NCBI GenBank assembly: GCA_001303705.1
Contig: LJUI01000102.1
Span: forward strand, 1 to 11,596
From: a candidate division TA06 bacterium SM23_40
Lineage (GTDB): Bacteria; LJUI01; SM1-40
DNA: 11,596 nucleotides
Direction: 5' to 3'
In this document: piece after piece, positions 2,765 to 10,352 of the stretch
Layout of the letters: each line of letters opens with the position of its first letter
Numbering within the stretch: the first letter of the stretch is position 1
Notes under the pieces: model-generated
What the model saw: the letters and a program-made list of their open reading frames with translations, nothing else
Told to the model about the DNA's origin: nothing
The model's database searches: none
Program-made: the position numbers and the translations under genes

Positions 2765-4276
2765 ATGTTGGTCGTATCTCCAAATAGAAGGTGCAGAAAG
2801 GGCGAGCAGGGTGCTGCATTGATCATTACGGTCCTGATCGCCTTCATCGTCTTTCTGCTTGTCGCTTCCTGGCTCATTACGACGACCCGCCGTCTCCGGC
2901 TCATCTCACTGGAGCGGGATCGCCTCCAGGCGTTCTATACTGCGGAGGCGGGCATCAACAAGGCGCTGTGGTACCTGAAGGGAAATGGCGACCGGAATGC
3001 GAGCTGGCGGACGCAGGACGAAGAGGGCGAGGAGGAACCGGTAGAGGATACACTCTTCGTCGGGCGGGCGGATGTCGCAAGGCTTTCTGTTCAGGACCGG
3101 GGCGCCTTCCTGGGCATCACCTCGCGCGGGAGGGCTCGTTGGGCGACCAAAGAGGTGAGCGTGACAATGGGGACCGAACTCTCCGGCGTATTCGGACCTG
3201 CCGTCACCGTGGCGTCACAGACTGCGCTGGTTCTCGATGCGGGGACCGAGATCGTGGGAAACTTTCAGGCACGGGTGCCTCCTGTCGAGATGGGTGGCCG
3301 GATCGAGGGGAAAAAGCGGATTGATGGTAACGTGGCTCTTCCTCCGTTTGATTCCTCTTCGCTCACCAGCACCGCTGAGAAGTTTCGCGCGATGCTGGGG
3401 GATGCAAGCCTTGCTGATGAGGAACTTTTCTCGCCCCAGATATTCGACGAGCGCAACCTGCCCGATTTCGCCGGCGGCAAGACCATCTATGTGAACGATC
3501 TCGTCCTTATCGAAGGGGGGGAGCCTGATGCCCCGCTCATCATCAAGGGTCCTGGGACGATCATCAGCATCAATGAAATACAGGTCTCCGGAACCGTGAG
3601 ATTGCTCGATCAGGTAACGCTCGTGGCGCAGGACGAAGTTCGGTTGCTGGAATCCGCGGAGTTGTACGACGGCATGATATACGCCGGCCGGAAGATCGGA
3701 ATCAGGGAGGAATCGCAATTCCGTGGTCAAGCTCTCACCCCGGGCAAGATAGTCGTTGGCGAGGAGGCCACCGTCCATTCTCCCAGCGTGCTGTTCGCAG
3801 GCGGTGGTGGGGATGGGCAGAGGGAGGGGCGCATCGTCGTCGACGGAGATGCGATCGTAACTGCATCGCTCCTGGCTATGCAGGCTAGTTCTGGCGGGGG
3901 CATGTTCCAGGGGAGTCAGGCACGCGGAGGGGCCGGGCGCGGGACCAGCTGGGCGGCCAGCAGAGGAGGACAGCCCGGCACATCCCGGCAGGCGGAGGAG
4001 GAGGAGGCGACGATCTACATCGGGGAAGACGCGCTCGTCAGAGGTCTTGTCTACACCCCGGCGTCGGCCGAGATACGGGGAACGGTCAGGGGTGCAGTGG
4101 CCATCGGGGAGTTCTATAGCAAGGCGCTATCTTCAACACCAGGTCATCCCATGGCGTCGACGAACCGAGTGGTGGGAGCAACGATCGATCGAGGGGGACT
4201 TCCTGCGGACTTTGTCGCGCCATTCGGGTTCGCTGGTTCTCAAACCCTGAGACTCGTCTCATGGATCGAACTGTAG
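2765..4276 (+). CDS. PilX/GspK-like pseudopilin with beta-helix (bactofilin-like) domain
   Basis: The 503-residue protein starts with a basic leader and QGAALIITVLIAFIVFLLVASW, then ...RDRLQAFYTAEAGINKALWYL (to residue 71), the hallmark of PilX/GspK minor pilins. The expected cleavage is after Gly16. The +5 residue of the mature protein is Ile, not Glu, as in GspK. From about residue 143 to 455 the chain turns into many short beta strands with periodic turns (for example IVGNFQARV, GTIISINEIQVSG, DALVRGLVYTPASAEIRGTVRGAVAIGEFY), which looks like a right-handed beta-helix related to the bactofilin (polymer-forming) fold. A Gly/Ser/Arg-rich low-complexity insert lies at about 375-408. Inferred role: first or tip subunit of a pseudopilus or pilus, exposing the beta-helix outside. 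ATG 2765 follows the previous stop by one base; the Shine-Dalgarno is poor, so coupled translation is likely. Leader and PilX-type N-terminus are certain, beta-helix is judged by eye. Confidence 0.78.
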   Translation: MLVVSPNRRCRKGEQGAALIITVLIAFIVFLLVASWLITTTRRLRLISLERDRLQAFYTAEAGINKALWYLKGNGDRNASWRTQDEEGEEEPVEDTLFVGRADVARLSVQDRGAFLGITSRGRARWATKEVSVTMGTELSGVFGPAVTVASQTALVLDAGTEIVGNFQARVPPVEMGGRIEGKKRIDGNVALPPFDSSSLTSTAEKFRAMLGDASLADEELFSPQIFDERNLPDFAGGKTIYVNDLVLIEGGEPDAPLIIKGPGTIISINEIQVSGTVRLLDQVTLVAQDEVRLLESAELYDGMIYAGRKIGIREESQFRGQALTPGKIVVGEEATVHSPSVLFAGGGGDGQREGRIVVDGDAIVTASLLAMQASSGGGMFQGSQARGGAGRGTSWAASRGGQPGTSRQAEEEEATIYIGEDALVRGLVYTPASAEIRGTVRGAVAIGEFYSKALSSTPGHPMASTNRVVGATIDRGGLPADFVAPFGFAGSQTLRLVSWIEL

Positions 4277-4293
4277 CAATGAGAGGTGGGGCA

Positions 4294-4950
4294 ATGCTGA
4301 GGCAGAGAGGGCGGAGGAGTCGTGCGGACGGAGTTCGCGGATTCACACTCGTCGAGCTTCTTGTGGCGATCTCTATCATCGGCATCTTGCTCCTTCCGCT
4401 GCTCAACGTGTTGAGCAGACAGGTGAGGACGGAGAGGGATCTGAGGGACATGCAGATCGCGCTTGCCCTGGCGCAGGATGCAATGGAGCAGATGCAGAAT
4501 CTTCCGATGCGGGAAGATGAACTGAAGGATCGCGAATTCTTTATCGAGCTCCAGGGCACCACGTGGCGCATCGTTCGTGATGTGATCGACGGGGAAGAGG
4601 AGGACGAACCGCTCGACGGTACCGACCCCCTCGAGATCTGGATCCAGGTATACAAAGGAGAGAGTCCCACGGCCATTGCAGAGCTGGCGATGCTGAAGGA
4701 GGACTGGCAGGGGAGCTTCGGCGGAGCGATTGCCCAGATGGGAGGTGCAGGGGGACCCGGGGGCGCCGGCGGGTTCGGGACGACGTCTAGTCTGGACTGG
4801 GGTGCGGAGGGATGGGGAGAGATGGGCAGCGATTGGGGGAGCGGAGGCGACTGGGGTGGCGGCGACTGGGGCGGAGGCGACTGGGGCGGAGGCGACTGGG
4901 GAGAATGGACATTCGATACAACCGGAGGATGGTTTGGAGGCGGGCCGTGA
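4294..4950 (+). CDS. GspI/PilV-like prepilin with Gly-Asp-Trp repeat tail
   Basis: A 218-residue prepilin. The class III leader is short and basic and ends at Gly16; the mature protein begins FTLVELLVAISIIGILLLPLL with Glu at +5, so prepilin peptidase should cleave and methylate it. The sequence after the helix, RDMQIALALAQDAMEQMQNLP (51-71), resembles the ARaLAqakLEqLr segment of GspI/PilV minor pilins. The conserved pilin head is short (to about residue 135). The tail from about 147 is Gly-rich and ends with a DWGGG repeat (about 180-204) encoded by a 15-bp DNA repeat, then WTFDTTGGWFGGGP. The start is ATG 4294, with GAGG at 4283-4286, 7 nt upstream; in-frame ATGs at 4261 (inside the previous gene) and 4279 lack a good site. 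It follows the PilX-like gene by 17 nt and overlaps the next gene by 4 nt. Prepilin status is firm; the I/V class is an inference. Confidence 0.82.
   Translation: MLRQRGRRSRADGVRGFTLVELLVAISIIGILLLPLLNVLSRQVRTERDLRDMQIALALAQDAMEQMQNLPMREDELKDREFFIELQGTTWRIVRDVIDGEEEDEPLDGTDPLEIWIQVYKGESPTAIAELAMLKEDWQGSFGGAIAQMGGAGGPGGAGGFGTTSSLDWGAEGWGEMGSDWGSGGDWGGGDWGGGDWGGGDWGEWTFDTTGGWFGGGP
4831..4904 (+). repeat. 15-bp tandem repeat coding for Gly-Gly-Asp-Trp-Gly
   Basis: Units of the form GGCGACTGGGGYGGM start at 4846, 4861, 4876 and 4891 (the last one incomplete), preceded by a degenerate unit at 4831-4845. The units at 4861 and 4876 are identical. The period is a multiple of three, so copy-number change would lengthen or shorten the tail of the prepilin without a frameshift. 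The same DNA read on the minus strand gives proline-rich open frames that are only shadows. Confidence 0.9.
4936..4940 (+). promoter_or_regulatory. ribosome binding site deciding a GTG start (second prepilin)
   Basis: GGAGG lies 6 nt before GTG 4947, inside the end of the preceding gene. An in-frame ATG at 4929 has GGAGG directly abutting it with no spacer, so it cannot use that site well. Confidence 0.7.
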
Positions 4951-5711
4951 GCACACCTGATCGGCATCGGTCGAGAACTGACGAGCGAGCTGCCGCGAGT
5001 CTCGACTTCCGCAGTGGCTTCACCCTCGTCGAGTTGATGGTGACGATGACCATTTTCGCCATCGTCACATCTATCGTCTATTTCGCCTATGTACAGGCGC
5101 TACGCACGATGACCAAGGGCGAAGAGGCGGCTGATCTGGGGAGTGCGGTCCACGGCCTCGTGAAGACGATCCGGCAGGACCTGCTGCATTCTTCTTATCT
5201 CACGGAGGCTGCCCGGGAATCACTGGGGATCGTCACTTCCGACGGAGAAGAGATCCTCTACGTTCTCCATGACAGCGTGCTTGTCCGAAACGAGGCGCCT
5301 GCGCTCCCGCAGGGGATCATGCTGGACACATTTGCCTTTGCGTTTTATGGCAACGATCTCTCGTTCGATACGGACGGCGACAGCAGCGTTACGCTCGAAG
5401 AGCTCGACCTTGATAGCGACGAGGTATTGAAGCCGGGGGAGATCGAGCGTGTGACACTCGTTGAGGTCTACTTGCAGGCGTCGAAGCACGACCTGTCAAG
5501 GGCGATTACTTCCTCTGTCTATCTCCGGAGTCCGGGCCGCGCGCCAGCCACAGGACTGGCCGATACGAGCGCGTTTCCGGGAGACCGGTTTGGAGAGGGA
5601 ACGCTGTTTGGAGAAGGGACGGTGTTGGGAGAGCGAGAACGGCTGAAGGAGAAGGACCGTCAGAAGCAGAAGGAGAAGGGATTCGGTTTCGACTCGGATA
5701 TCTTCAAGTAG
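4947..5711 (+). CDS. GspJ/PilW-like prepilin with EF-hand-like loop and charged tail
   Basis: A 254-residue prepilin. The leader ends at Gly24 and the mature protein begins FTLVELMVTMTIFAIVTSIVYFAYVQALRTM with Glu at +5. The body (about 60-195) follows the GspJ/PilW plan: a helix containing LVKTIRQDLLHSS, then beta strands including EEILYVLHDSVLVRN and a terminal RVTLVEVYLQASK strand. An insert at 141-152, DTDGDSSVTLEE, has acidic residues at EF-hand positions 1, 3, 5 and 12 and Val at 8, so it could bind calcium; Ser replaces the usual Gly at position 6. The tail (about 214-254) has two FGEGT motifs and a Lys/Glu/Arg-rich stretch. The start is GTG 4947, with GGAGG 6 nt upstream and a 4-base GTGA overlap with the previous stop, a classic sign of coupled translation. 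It is the last gene of this unit; the next gene converges on it 13 nt away. Confidence 0.82.
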   Translation: MSTPDRHRSRTDERAAASLDFRSGFTLVELMVTMTIFAIVTSIVYFAYVQALRTMTKGEEAADLGSAVHGLVKTIRQDLLHSSYLTEAARESLGIVTSDGEEILYVLHDSVLVRNEAPALPQGIMLDTFAFAFYGNDLSFDTDGDSSVTLEELDLDSDEVLKPGEIERVTLVEVYLQASKHDLSRAITSSVYLRSPGRAPATGLADTSAFPGDRFGEGTLFGEGTVLGERERLKEKDRQKQKEKGFGFDSDIFK

Positions 5712-5722
5712 CAGGGACCGTT

Positions 5723-5744
5723 CACTACTGCCATGGCAGGAGTG
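5723..5744. terminator. near-perfect palindrome at the convergent gene junction
   Basis: CACT-A-CTGCCATGGCAG-G-AGTG is a 22-nt palindrome with one mismatched pair (5727/5740). It begins 12 nt past the stop of the second prepilin gene and covers the stop of the opposing lipoprotein gene (5725-5727). It could form a hairpin in either transcript and act as a shared end or stability element. There is no T run on either side, so a factor-independent terminator is not proven. Confidence 0.4.
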
Positions 5745-6510
5745 ATGGAGCCTTAGCCGTATCCGGCAGAGCCGTATCCGGCAGATCGGCCTCTTTCTCA
5801 GGGGCCGGTTCCTTTTTTGCGGGCTGTTCCTTCTGAGGAGCTTTCGGTGGCTTTGATTGAGGGACTTCCGGTGGCTCCGGGGATGCGGGGCGCATCTCTT
5901 CGGGGGCTGTGGTGACCTCCGGAGTATCCGCGGCCGCAGCCCGCTCTTTGCGTTCGTGTCTACGCTCACTCTGCCGTTCGATGGGAGCGACCTCGCCGGA
6001 CACCGATACCGCCATCTTTCTCACTACGACATCGGTGAGCTCACCGATATCTGCGTGGTCCTCCCGGCGGTAGGTCGCTACTCCAACGAGTTCTCCGCTC
6101 GACGCGTCGATCAGCTCGAGTGAAAGGGCGATCCGCTGCTTCTCTTCCGTGATGAGCCCGACTTCGTACTCGTCGATGGCTCCCATGACGAGGATGTCCG
6201 CGTCCAGAATGGTCCCTGCCGCCACGATCTCCTCGGTGGAGAGGTCCACTCCCTGTTCGATTCCCGCCTCCTCGAGTTTGCGGTTGAGCTGCCCCCGCTC
6301 CACGACGATCAGCTGATCCTGATGAAACAACTCGTGGGAAAGCTTGTCGGCGACCCTGCTGCCGAGGTGACGGTCGGCAGACGAGCTGTGATCGACGAAA
6401 TCGAGGATCGCAACTGTAAGTGGGGTCTCGGGGGGGAGCGAGCGCACGGTCGTGCGGGGCGCTGCACACGAAGTCACTACCAGAACAGGAATCAGCAGAA
6501 TTCTCTTCAT
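5725..6510 (-). CDS. CsgG-like outer-membrane lipoprotein with proline-rich tail
   Basis: The 261-residue product begins MKRILLIPVLVVTSC with lipobox VTSC, so it should be lipidated at Cys15. Residues about 30-170 match the CsgG/FlgO-like fold: LTVAILDFVDHS opening strand, GSRVADKLSHEL helix, LIVVERGQLNRKLEEAG, and AAGTILDADILVMGAIDEYEV, equivalent to the family's vveR..l...l.E.....A..lgaD.ivvG.i.eY. Position 111-113 is Ala-Ile-Asp without a Cys. The C-terminal 90 residues are rich in Pro, Glu, Lys and Ala, likely disordered, and carry a small LPDTA duplication. The start is ATG 6510, because upstream codons in the same frame lie inside the secretin gene and would hide the signal peptide. It lies 8 nt after the secretin stop on the same strand, so the two are co-transcribed. 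Inferred role: outer-membrane partner of the secretin, perhaps pilotin-like or an assembly factor; not demonstrated. Confidence 0.82.
   Translation of the reverse strand: MKRILLIPVLVVTSCAAPRTTVRSLPPETPLTVAILDFVDHSSSADRHLGSRVADKLSHELFHQDQLIVVERGQLNRKLEEAGIEQGVDLSTEEIVAAGTILDADILVMGAIDEYEVGLITEEKQRIALSLELIDASSGELVGVATYRREDHADIGELTDVVVRKMAVSVSGEVAPIERQSERRHERKERAAAADTPEVTTAPEEMRPASPEPPEVPQSKPPKAPQKEQPAKKEPAPEKEADLPDTALPDTAKAPSLLPWQ
5756..5785 (-). repeat. exact 15-bp tandem duplication in the lipoprotein gene
   Basis: GCCGTATCCGGCAGA occurs twice head to tail (5756-5770 and 5771-5785). On the coding strand it doubles the pentapeptide LPDTA near the C-terminus. This is an in-frame slippage product in a disordered tail and is unlikely to change function. 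Confidence 0.9.
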
Positions 6511-6518
6511 CGGATCGA

Positions 6519-8309
6519 TCAGCTCTCTATCAGGTGCGGGGTGATATAGATGACGAGCTCTTGGTCGTCTCGGGTCTTGTCCCACGAGGAGAAGAGGATT
6601 CCGACAAGGGGGAGATCGCCCAGAAGCGGAATCTTGGTCCGTGTGTCCGTGACGCGGGACTGGCTGAGCCCGCCAATGATGATTGTCTCTCCATCACGGA
6701 GACGTATCGTCGTGTCAGCCACCCGTCGCCCAACTTCTGGGAGCCCCTCAGAGGTAATACCGGTGATGTCTGAGATCTCGATGTGGATCACCGTAGTGAT
6801 CTCGCCCGATGCAGCCACCCAGGGTATGATGTTGAGGCGGATCGCCACATCGATCGAGTGGAGCTGCGTGATCGGCTCGAGAGCAGTGCCTGTCGTCGTA
6901 CGGTACCACTGGACTGTCCCCACATCGATGCTCGCCTGGTTCCCGTTCAGGGTTGCGATCCTCGGCCTGGCCCTCACTCTCACATCGCCGGAGGTCTCGA
7001 GCGCCTCCAGGGTCAGCACGAAGTCCTCGGGCAGCCGGCCCAGACTGCCGAACCGGAGCTGGTCGGTGATATCCTCGACTCTATCGCTGATGTCGTCGCC
7101 CGTCAGCACTACGTTGAGGGTGGGGATGATCGTGCGCCCTGTATCCGGAGTAGTTGGCTCGAAGTACCCCCCCCTCATGCCCAGCTTCATCTGTGCCTTA
7201 TCCGACAGCTGGGCGATGACCGCGTCGAACATGACCTGAGGCGATACCACATCGATCTGCTGGATAAAGTCCTCCGTCCGGTCAAGGAGATCCTCCGTCC
7301 CCATGACAAGGATGGCGTTCTGTTCCTTTACGACCCTCACGTTGACTGCAGGGATCGATTGAGGAAGGAGCTGAAGTACTCCCTCAGCCTTGATATGGTG
7401 GAGGGGGATGAGCTTGGTCGAGCTCATCGCCTGGGCGGCAGGGCTATTGATGCTCTTGTCTCCGACGAGATAGATCTTGTCGACCTTGCGGTAGGTCAAA
7501 TTGGTGCCCTGGAACAGGAGGCTGAATACCTGCTCCAGCGGGACCCGCGTCAACTTCGCGTTGACGAGTCCCCGCACGTCTCCGTATCGGACGATGTCGA
7601 TATCGGTCTGGAGGGCGATCTCGTCGAGGACGTCGGCTATGTCGGCGTCGCTCACATCGAGAGTGACGAGAAGCCCCTCCTCAATGGTGATGGACAGCCC
7701 CTTCCGAGCGCCCGGCCGTCCGGCCGCCCGGGAGACCTCGTACACATTGAGGCGTTTGCGCAGGATGTAGCCATTGGCGCTGAGAAATGATGCGAGGCCG
7801 GTGTCGAACTCAACGTCGTGGAGCATCCCGGACACCGGTCCCCGGACGGTCTGGTCGGAGACGATGTTGATCCCGCTCTGGCGGGAGATCTCACGGAGGA
7901 CAGTGGTGATCTCGGCGTTGGTGACGTCGATACTGAGGACCTCAGTCGTGGCCTCGATGTCGATTCGTCCCTCGCTGCGCCGCACGATGTATGCGTCGGC
8001 CTCGCGGATAAGCATGAAACCGTTCTGCTCGAGGAGGAGTTTCAGACCTTCGATGACGGGGATTTCGTGGAGATGAATCGTGACGTTTCCCTCCACCGCC
8101 TGATCGACGATGATGTTGAGGCCGAACTGATCTCCAATGGCCCGCACGATATCCCTGATATCGGCATCCTTGAAGTCGAGCGTCATGGTGCGGGTCGTGT
8201 CCGGCTCCTCCTGTGCGACGGTTTGAACCCCCAACACGCACAGGACGAACAGACCTGCAATCACCAGGCGATGTGCCAGCTTACCGTGTCGCTGATGCTT
8301 CCGTCTCAT
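6519..8309 (-). CDS. pilQ: outer-membrane secretin (PilQ/GspD family), three N0-like domains
   Basis: The 596-residue protein forms the outer-membrane gate. A signal peptide (1 to about 33, cut near VQTVAQ) is followed by three similar STN/N0-like modules at about 42-110, 119-193 and 205-283. Each has the form L.F.DADI.DVL..I..Q..INIV.D..V.G.V...L..VP...L..LL. An N1/NolW-like domain follows at about 296-353 (STKLIPLHHIKAEGVLQLL...NAILVMGTEDLLDRTEDFIQQID). The secretin core is 357-596 and holds VRARPRIATLNGNQASIDVG (443-464), GLPEVGRRVADTTIRLRDGETIIIGGL (522-548), KIPLLGDLPLVGILFSS and ELVIYITPHLI, all textbook secretin signatures. No AMIN domain is seen. ATG 8309 is chosen because GAGGAGA stands just before it; the ATGs at 8342/8339 have no such site and would put 11 polar residues ahead of the signal peptide. 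It is transcribed with the CsgG-like lipoprotein and divergently from the PilM-PilN gene. Confidence 0.93.
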   Translation of the reverse strand: MRRKHQRHGKLAHRLVIAGLFVLCVLGVQTVAQEEPDTTRTMTLDFKDADIRDIVRAIGDQFGLNIIVDQAVEGNVTIHLHEIPVIEGLKLLLEQNGFMLIREADAYIVRRSEGRIDIEATTEVLSIDVTNAEITTVLREISRQSGINIVSDQTVRGPVSGMLHDVEFDTGLASFLSANGYILRKRLNVYEVSRAAGRPGARKGLSITIEEGLLVTLDVSDADIADVLDEIALQTDIDIVRYGDVRGLVNAKLTRVPLEQVFSLLFQGTNLTYRKVDKIYLVGDKSINSPAAQAMSSTKLIPLHHIKAEGVLQLLPQSIPAVNVRVVKEQNAILVMGTEDLLDRTEDFIQQIDVVSPQVMFDAVIAQLSDKAQMKLGMRGGYFEPTTPDTGRTIIPTLNVVLTGDDISDRVEDITDQLRFGSLGRLPEDFVLTLEALETSGDVRVRARPRIATLNGNQASIDVGTVQWYRTTTGTALEPITQLHSIDVAIRLNIIPWVAASGEITTVIHIEISDITGITSEGLPEVGRRVADTTIRLRDGETIIIGGLSQSRVTDTRTKIPLLGDLPLVGILFSSWDKTRDDQELVIYITPHLIES

Positions 8310-8360
8310 GATCTCCTCAGAATTCGCGGCGTCTGTCATCAAGACGGCGGTACTACCAGG

Positions 8361-8620: not shown

Positions 8621-8679
8621 CTGGTTGGATAACACGTAATGCGTGCCAGGCGACCTCTTTTTATGGGGGAATGGAACGT

Positions 8680-10352
8680 ATGGCAGAGTGGCAGGAGCAG
8701 ATCAGACGTCTCGTAGGAGGCAGGAAGACCTACGTCGGGCTCGACATAGGGACACAGGCGGTCAAGGTCGTCGAGGTGGCCCTGGACCGGGATCAGCTCG
8801 TCGTTTCTCGGCTGGGAAGTGCGCCGATTGCGGGCTGGGCCTCTGCGGGCGGCCCAATCTGAGCGGAGCGTTCGTGGTGTCGCGTTCGCTCAGCGTTCCT
8901 TCGCTGGCACGGGGAGCGATCGATCAGATACTCTCAACCGACGCGCTCGCCTACCTGCCCCCGGGGGTGGGAGGCAAGGATGTCGTCGTCGACTACCAGG
9001 TGATTGGAGAAACGCAGGCGAGGGGGAAGGGAAAGGGTGTGGCCCAAGTCCTGATCGTTGCTGCGCGGAAGGATGCGATCCACGAACATGTCGACCTCCT
9101 GAGGCAGGCCGGGTTGCTGGCGCGACGGATCGACGCGAACTGCCTTTCTCTGCTCGAGGCGTTCCAGGGGCACCGGTGGCTTACTGAGGGGAGGGCGACG
9201 GCGATCCTCGATGTGGGGGCGAGCAGCACCAAAGTCGTCGTGGTTGAACGCGGCGCGGTGAGGCTCTCTTCCGAGCTCACGTTCGGAGGTGTGCAGGTAA
9301 CGCAGGCGCTTGCCTCCAGGTATGATCTGGACGAGGAGGGGGCTGAGGCTCTGAAGCTAGAGGTATCCCGGGCCGGTGAAGAGACCGAATCCGTGGAGGT
9401 CGACGGCAGGGCCTACTCTGTGGCAGAACTGCGGGAGACGCTGGAAAGCCTGTACGAGGCGCTTATTGGTTCGCTGCGACGTCTGTTCGATTTCTATCAG
9501 CGGACTGAGTTTGCTGGTAGTTCTGTCGATAGTCTGATTCTGGCTGGAGGTGGGGCTCGGGCGTTCGGGCTCCAGCCGTTCCTGGCGGCAAAGATGCTGC
9601 TCGATGTCGAGGTGGGCAACCCCTTCGGTCGCCTGCCCTTTCGTCTCTCCGGCCCGGCACTGGTGGATCTGGACGAGGCTTCGCCGAGATATGCGCTGGC
9701 GCTCGGTCTCGCACTCAAGGGCATGGCTCCGCGTGAGGGCGCGGTCGACCTGCTTCCGCTCTCTGTACGCGATGACCAGACGAGAGTTCGTCAGGGGCGA
9801 CGCGCGCGGAGAGTTGCCCTCGTCTACTTTGGTGTGCTGGCTCTCGTCGCCGCTCTCCTCGCCGAAGGGCGGCACTACTTCCGTGCTCAGGCCGATTATG
9901 CTCGAGAGCAGACGGCTGTGCTCAGGCCTCTGGTCGAGGAAGCGACGAGACTGGAGGAGGAGAACGTCCGCCTGCGCGACAAACTCGCTCTGCTGGAAGG
10001 TCTGGGCGGCGGGAGACTCATCTGGGCCAAGGCACTTCACGATATCGGAAGCCTCGTCCCCGACGGTGTGTGGCTTACGGACATCTCCTCTGAAGAGAGA
10101 CTCAGGGTACGGCGGCGGGAAGCCGAGGAGGCCTCGAGCGCTGAGCCGGGGCGCACGGTCACCAGCCTGACCATGTTGACTGTCGAAGGGAGGGGATCGT
10201 CGGAGAGCGATGTTTCGCGTTTCCTCAGAGCTCTCGAGACATCCCCCGCGATGACGAATGTGAGGCTCGACTACGTCAGGGAGATCGAAGATGAGGGAAG
10301 ATACGCGGCTCAGGGGGTCGAGTTCCAGATCAGGCTTGCATTCACACCATAA
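8680..10352 (+). pseudogene. PilM-PilN fusion (GspL-like), interrupted by a frameshift in the PilM part
   Basis: The gene would encode an actin-like PilM joined in one frame to PilN. From ATG 8680 the frame gives GLDIGTQAVKVVEV (phosphate-1 loop of PilM) and runs to a TGA at 8860-8862. The rest lies in another frame, open to the TAA at 10350-10352: FVVSRSLSVPSLARGAI, DVGASSTKVVVVE (phosphate-2, about 9211-9249), LILAGGGARAFGLQPFL (adenosine-binding motif, about 9534-9584), then without a stop AVDLLPLSVR (9741-9770), equivalent to the INLLP peptide of PilN, a membrane helix (about 9800-9864), a coiled coil, and a ferredoxin-like domain to the end. About 35-45 residues normally found between the two frames are absent, so the lesion is a loss of length 1 modulo 3, not a one-base slip. 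It is either a real inactivating deletion or an assembly error. Downstream sequence is otherwise intact, which favours a recent event or an artefact. No separate PilN start is needed, although an in-frame ATG exists at 9723. Confidence 0.78.

Follow-up and report, generated by a model that had tools for sequence, protein, structure and literature searches.

A conserved PilM-PilN fusion, interrupted as sequenced, in a probable second type IV filament system of a candidate division TA06 bacterium

Introduction

GspL of the type II secretion system (T2SS) is the counterpart of PilM plus PilN of type IV pili (T4P) (PMC10191384; PMC3815138; PMC4471445). A sequence-only reading of a locus in candidate division TA06 bacterium SM23_40 had proposed that PilM and PilN form one GspL-like polypeptide there (8680–10352) and that this chain, by keeping the ATP motifs of PilM, stands between the two systems. 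Here, we ask whether that polypeptide exists, whether the fusion is conserved and to which kind of machine it belongs. The window analysed is the entire contig C55 (11,596 bases); the draft genome to which it belongs comprises 189 contigs, totals 2.88 Mb and is 89.8% complete. In the genome set compared, searches of its own genus, family and phylum returned the window's genome alone, and an Rfam search of the window gave no match.

Domains and reading frames of the PilM-PilN locus

On the forward strand, a single frame runs from PilM into PilN without a stop codon (8856–10352), as the sequence-only reading had described. Its translation (8862–10349) matches PF11104 PilM_2 (E=3e-30; profile positions 89–339 of 340) and PF05137 PilN (E=1.5e-12). 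The PilM part (8856–9740) carries, by loop alignment, the phosphate-2 loop DVGASSTK (9210–9233) and the adenosine loop LAGGG (9540–9554). It is followed by AVDLLP (9741–9758), which aligns with the INLLP/IDLIP of fused homologues and is the counterpart of the INLLP peptide by which PilN docks to PilM, here covalently attached. Next come a single membrane helix, VALVYFGVLALVAALLAEG (9813–9869), the sole strong hydropathy peak (2.21 over 19 residues), and the periplasmic ferredoxin-like domain of PilN (10035–10337; PF05137, residues 392–492 of the fragment). Of the three profiles with which the earlier reading suggested comparing the translation, those for PilM and PilN thus matched and that for GspL did not: neither PF05134 nor TIGR01709 hit the window protein at E<=1, and PF05134 had no match anywhere in the genome. 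NF045709 (Amuc_1101), an NCBI PilM-like family long enough to be fused, aligns across the PilM-PilN junction and matches residues 1–428 (E=1.5e-34), but the score of 119.8 bits against a cut-off of 650, obtained without the N-terminus, does not make the window protein a member.

The first phosphate loop, GLDIGT (8737–8754), lies in a different frame. It belongs to an upstream piece (piece A; 8671–8862, forward strand) that encodes the N-terminal strands of the actin-like subdomain 1A and ends at TGA 8860–8862, so that GLDIGT does not share a chain with DVGASSTK as had been claimed. Piece A may start at ATG 8671 or ATG 8680; from 8680, the translation MAEWQ...KTYVGLDIGTQAVKVVEV...SAGGPI runs for 60 residues up to the stop. 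It matches positions 1–32 of the PF11104 profile weakly (E=0.012) and is 57% identical to residues 8–37 of a fused PilMN orthologue in another genome, G267 (locus L035; blastp, E=1e-9). The downstream frame (piece B; 8643+3n) is open from 8643, but its homology begins only with NLSG at 8856, and from there it aligns with residues 77–538 of the same orthologue (28% identity, E=9e-53). Between the two alignments, 41 nt (8815–8855, forward strand) stand where 39–41 orthologue codons are expected, so that some 76–82 nt are missing (about 76 by comparison with G267 and 82 with the orthologue in G292, a number equal to 1 modulo 3) and the frame is changed. Codon-position GC switches phase between about 8830 and 8920; both pieces therefore look coding, with the shift near 8815–8856.

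Relative to the aligned homologues, the lesion lacks 25–27 residues. On the AlphaFold model of the G292 orthologue, these are the counterpart of the helix at residues 51–68 and the start of the strand at 75–80 of the actin-like domain, a region that is occupied in every aligned homologue, whether fused or separate. A complete PilM domain, with its phosphate-1 loop in the frame of PilN, is absent from the window and present in three orthologues. The DNA as it stands encodes no single polypeptide from 8680 to 10352: the fusion of PilM to PilN stands, whereas the phosphate-1 piece is out of frame with it and about 80 nt are gone.

The gene is thus interrupted inside PilM subdomain 1A, either by a real mutation that removed some 80 nt or by an assembly error. 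A pure assembly error, with an intact fused gene in the living cell, would be a special case of our preferred explanation and not a rival to the fusion, and we put it at slightly better than even. It would fit the remaining 498 codons being open and well conserved, the adjoining secretin, PilO, PilP and PilX-like genes being intact and the genome being a draft of 189 contigs. Short GC-rich repeats are also found at the junction (TGCGGGC at 8829 and 8844, GGCTGGG at 8810 and 8833), although seven-base repeats may well arise by chance at such GC content, and a recent real deletion would give an identical picture. If the mutation is real, the second machine discussed below would be off in this cell line. 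Programmed ribosomal frameshifting, which would join the two pieces and make the interruption functional, was considered because codon-position GC and homology suggest that both are coding. A change of frame alone, however, cannot supply the 25–27 missing residues, which build one helix and contribute to a strand, and no orthologue has a frame break at that site; we rejected this explanation as highly improbable.

Intact orthologues and predicted fold

Three genomes of one other phylum (G267, G291 and G292) carry the gene as an intact single fusion of 558–561 codons. These orthologues cover nearly the whole window fragment at 28–33% identity and group with the window protein in the phylogenetic tree (clade support 100/98). 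All three ATP-site loops are there, as GLDIG, D[ILV]G and GGG/GGA, and an INLLP-type peptide lies between the PilM domain and the helix that crosses the membrane. The sequence-only reading had named separate pilM and pilN genes in orthologues as evidence against a fusion; none was detected among the orthologues found, all from that one phylum, and the separate pilM and pilN on contig C22 of the window's own genome are paralogues. Given three intact single-gene orthologues in another phylum, the fusion is conserved in several genomes, the result that this reading had named as supporting evidence. Sequence comparison thus indicates that the PilM-PilN fusion is real and conserved, and that the window's copy, as sequenced, is broken.

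For the G292 orthologue, AlphaFold predicts (pLDDT 83.8) an actin-like part, a long helix and a C-terminal alpha/beta domain. The best PDB matches of this model are PilM bound to PilN(1–12) with ATP (5EOU, E=2.4e-26) and PilM-PilN (2YCH), and loop conservation predicts that the PilM domain of the orthologues binds ATP. The window protein and its orthologues thus share with type IVa PilM and PilN (PF11104, PF05137; 5EOU, 2YCH) the actin-like fold, the INLLP-type peptide, the membrane helix and the PilN domain, and the intact orthologues share the ATP loops as well. In type IVa pili, however, these parts form two chains and here one, with PilM interrupted in the window.

ATP loops and the divide between pili and secretion

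Does the fusion represent an evolutionary intermediate between T4P and T2SS, in which a GspL-like chain has retained the ATP loops of PilM? The locus does hold a mixture of genes: a PilO with a weaker T2SSM_b match, a GspC-like PilP, GspI- and GspJ-like pseudopilins and a secretin that scores best with PilQ, while the orthologues keep the ATP loops. These loops, however, are not diagnostic. Among 290 sampled genomes, 20 loci encoding a fused PilM-PilN or a PilM-like GspL chain were inspected, and in most the loops were intact. Locus L140 is a complete, textbook gspD-E-F-G-H-I-J-K-L-M-N operon whose GspL carries GLDIGSYSIK, DIGHQKT and GGS and matches both PF11104 and PF05134, so the presence of ATP loops is no sign of a half-way form. 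Such loops in a fused chain thus fail to distinguish pili from secretion, and the intermediate status that had been proposed for the fusion does not follow from them.

The phylogeny leans the same way. The window clade groups with separate PilMs (86/89) and is sister to one separate PilM (95/84), while the other fusions group with PilM-like GspLs, apart from it; taken as it is, this topology implies a separate fusion event for the window clade. The AU test does not reject a common origin for all fusions (p-AU 0.265), so that the tree establishes neither the number of fusion events nor a transitional position. With no PF05134 match in the window protein or its genome, and with the window clade placed beside separate T4P PilMs and not GspLs (again subject to the p-AU of 0.265), we regard an evolutionary intermediate as very unlikely.

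The fusion is instead a further case of an already known arrangement. Most T4P clusters of Campylobacterota have pilM and pilN fused, likewise as one gene (PMC11870540), but the gene order reported there is pilMNOPQ, whereas here the secretin is divergent and PilO and PilP stand apart. With GspL (PF05134/TIGR01709), including that of L140, the window protein shares the combination, within a single chain, of a cytosolic actin-like domain with a membrane helix and a periplasmic domain; it differs in having no PF05134 match, in its neighbours and in its separation from PilM-like GspLs in the tree, where the support is not decisive. Fusions of PilM and PilN with ATP loops are common and are found in ordinary T2SS operons as well, so that such a chain is no missing link.

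Neighbouring genes

The PilMN frame is flanked by a divergent secretin gene (6519–8342, reverse strand) with several N0/STN domains (PF00263, E=1.5e-39; PF07660, PF21305, PF03958). Downstream of the secretin, on the same strand, lies a CsgG/LpoB-like lipoprotein (5725–6585; PF03783, E=7.4e-07), a neighbour common to G291, G292 and G267. Secretin orthologues adjoin PilMN in G291 and G292 (phmmer, E about 1e-196), where the secretin and the CsgG-like lipoprotein are divergent from PilMN exactly as in the window, and the G267 secretin is 53% identical. A close secretin was also seen in a further lineage (G148, contig C44, L097:8468–10348; 42% identity, E=1.7e-150); no PilMN was seen in the 10 kb of L097, a span limited by contig ends, and the PilM of that genome is separate, on contig C154 (L105).

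Five further genes lie on the forward strand. The PilO/GspM-like protein (1622–2185) has one membrane helix and matches PF04350 (E=2.2e-12), PF10741 T2SSM_b (E=1e-05) and, below the cut-off, NF040576 (E=1.1e-9). The PilP/GspC-like protein (2233–2763) scores better with T2SSC (E=1.8e-4) than with PilP (E=0.022), both below the cut-off, and a helix at residues 28–46 bears out the earlier suggestion that PilP is membrane-anchored; it also resembles the PilO-PilP fusion of L035 (phmmer, E=1e-17). PilO and PilP are two adjacent genes in the window and fused in the clusters of the other phylum (L035:8515–9396, L072:4580–5479, L073:10603–11514); in G291 and G292 the fusion comes after PilMN, while the window has its separate genes at 1622–2763. 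The next gene (2765–4276) combines a PilX/GspK-like N-terminus with a bactofilin-like C-terminal part (PilX_N, E=1.7e-5; Bactofilin, E=1.6e-5; both just below the cut-off). The GspK-like protein of the sequence-only reading is recognizable in it over residues 14–114 (NF037980, E=1.9e-4), but the rest is partly bactofilin-like, below the cut-off; orthologues were found in G267 (phmmer, E=3e-49) and G292 (E=8e-48).

Two minor pseudopilins follow, each with an N_methyl match above the cut-off: a GspI-like protein (4261–4950; TIGR01707, E=9.2e-11) and a GspJ-like protein (4812–5711), whose true start is probably near GFTLVELM. Orthologues of both are present in G267 (L098) and G292 (L108), with E-values of 3e-25 and 7e-25 for the GspI-like and 3e-12 and 3e-10 for the GspJ-like protein. 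At its C-terminus the GspI-like protein has a GGDWGGGDWGGGDW repeat, which overlaps the beginning of the following frame (4830–4920). No ATPase, platform protein, major pilin or GspG was detected on the window contig. Compared with a T2SS locus, which has gspE, F, G, K and M together, the contig thus holds PilO/GspM-, GspC/PilP-, GspI- and GspJ-like genes and one that is GspK-like in part.

A second machine and its motor

A canonical, separate pilM-N-O-P-Q set lies on contig C22 of the window's genome, and in G292 the genes pilM, N, O and Q are located on contig C1 (L104); the window system, existing alongside such a canonical set, is a second type IV filament machine. Bin contamination as the source of two systems was rejected: contigs C55, C22 and C101 agree in composition, with a tetranucleotide r of 0.95–0.97 between the window contig and other contigs of the genome. 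Upstream of the canonical pil genes, their contig also encodes a predicted multihaem cytochrome c with many CxxCH motifs (L005:1294–3282).

Contig C101 of the window's genome (G000; L064) encodes one PilC/GspF (two PF00482 domains in one gene), adjacent to two PilB-type ATPases, a PilT and PilS/PilR. G267, G291 and G292 have one PilC each and three PilB-type ATPases close together (L099 and L103 among the loci), where the ATPases again neighbour PilT, PilC and PilS/PilR. The ATPase trio is not specific to the window system, as G129 and G290 have three PilB-type ATPases too, and a search of these genomes at E<=1e-15 gave no PilMN. In G000 (only 90% complete), G291 and G292, two PilMNOP/secretin sets were found but one PilC/GspF, and with one platform protein for two alignment complexes, sharing would be the simplest reading. 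Tentatively, the locus may then represent an undescribed, motorless type IV filament machine present in two phyla, composed of PilMN, PilO with PilP, a secretin, a CsgG-like lipoprotein, a PilX/bactofilin-like protein and GspI/J-like pseudopilins, and borrowing the single PilC and the tandem PilB of the canonical pilus; we consider this possible, though less likely than the opposite. If the platform is shared with T4P, the two machines would form a natural experiment on which component determines what a type IV filament motor builds.

Proposed working of the machine

With a probability of about 0.8, we assign the locus to a second type IV filament machine, as its GspL-type subunit, with the gene interrupted in the assembly. 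The domains, the frame break, the intact orthologues, the neighbours and the orthologue's fold model are observations; the coupling mechanism, and a pseudopilus or secretion device as the product in place of a surface pilus, are what we infer from them, with orthologues of a single phylum as the comparison.

In the intact orthologues, the INLLP-type peptide and one membrane helix connect the actin-like, predicted ATP-binding PilM domain to the periplasmic PilN domain, so that the fusion replaces the non-covalent PilM-PilN contact and makes it permanent. By analogy with GspL-type function in T2SS (PMC4471445; PMC10191384) and with PilMNO (PMC4471445), the cytosolic actin-like domain would bind and hold, or sense, the extension ATPase. 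In the periplasm, PilO and the membrane-anchored PilP would be the partners of PilN, and PilP may reach the secretin, as GspC does. Motor movement would thereby reach a short pseudopilus built from GspI/J/PilX-like subunits, which would work against the secretin, and the pseudopilin set suggests, by analogy, a pseudopilus of the secretion type.

Downstream of PilMN, the window encodes a predicted exported protein with GGDDRY/GGNDTY-type repeats that runs off the contig (10408–11596) and has no Pfam match at E<=0.1. The orthologous clusters have predicted exported proteins of very large size beside them (L098:10280–17449, L035:1983–5900, L072:5873–9502), which are possible substrates of the system. 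Those of G267 are RHS-repeat proteins (one was compared with Pfam and matched RHS_repeat at E=3.6e-20; L035 has RHS-like sequence), and the large exported protein of G291 has a weak glycosyl-hydrolase match.
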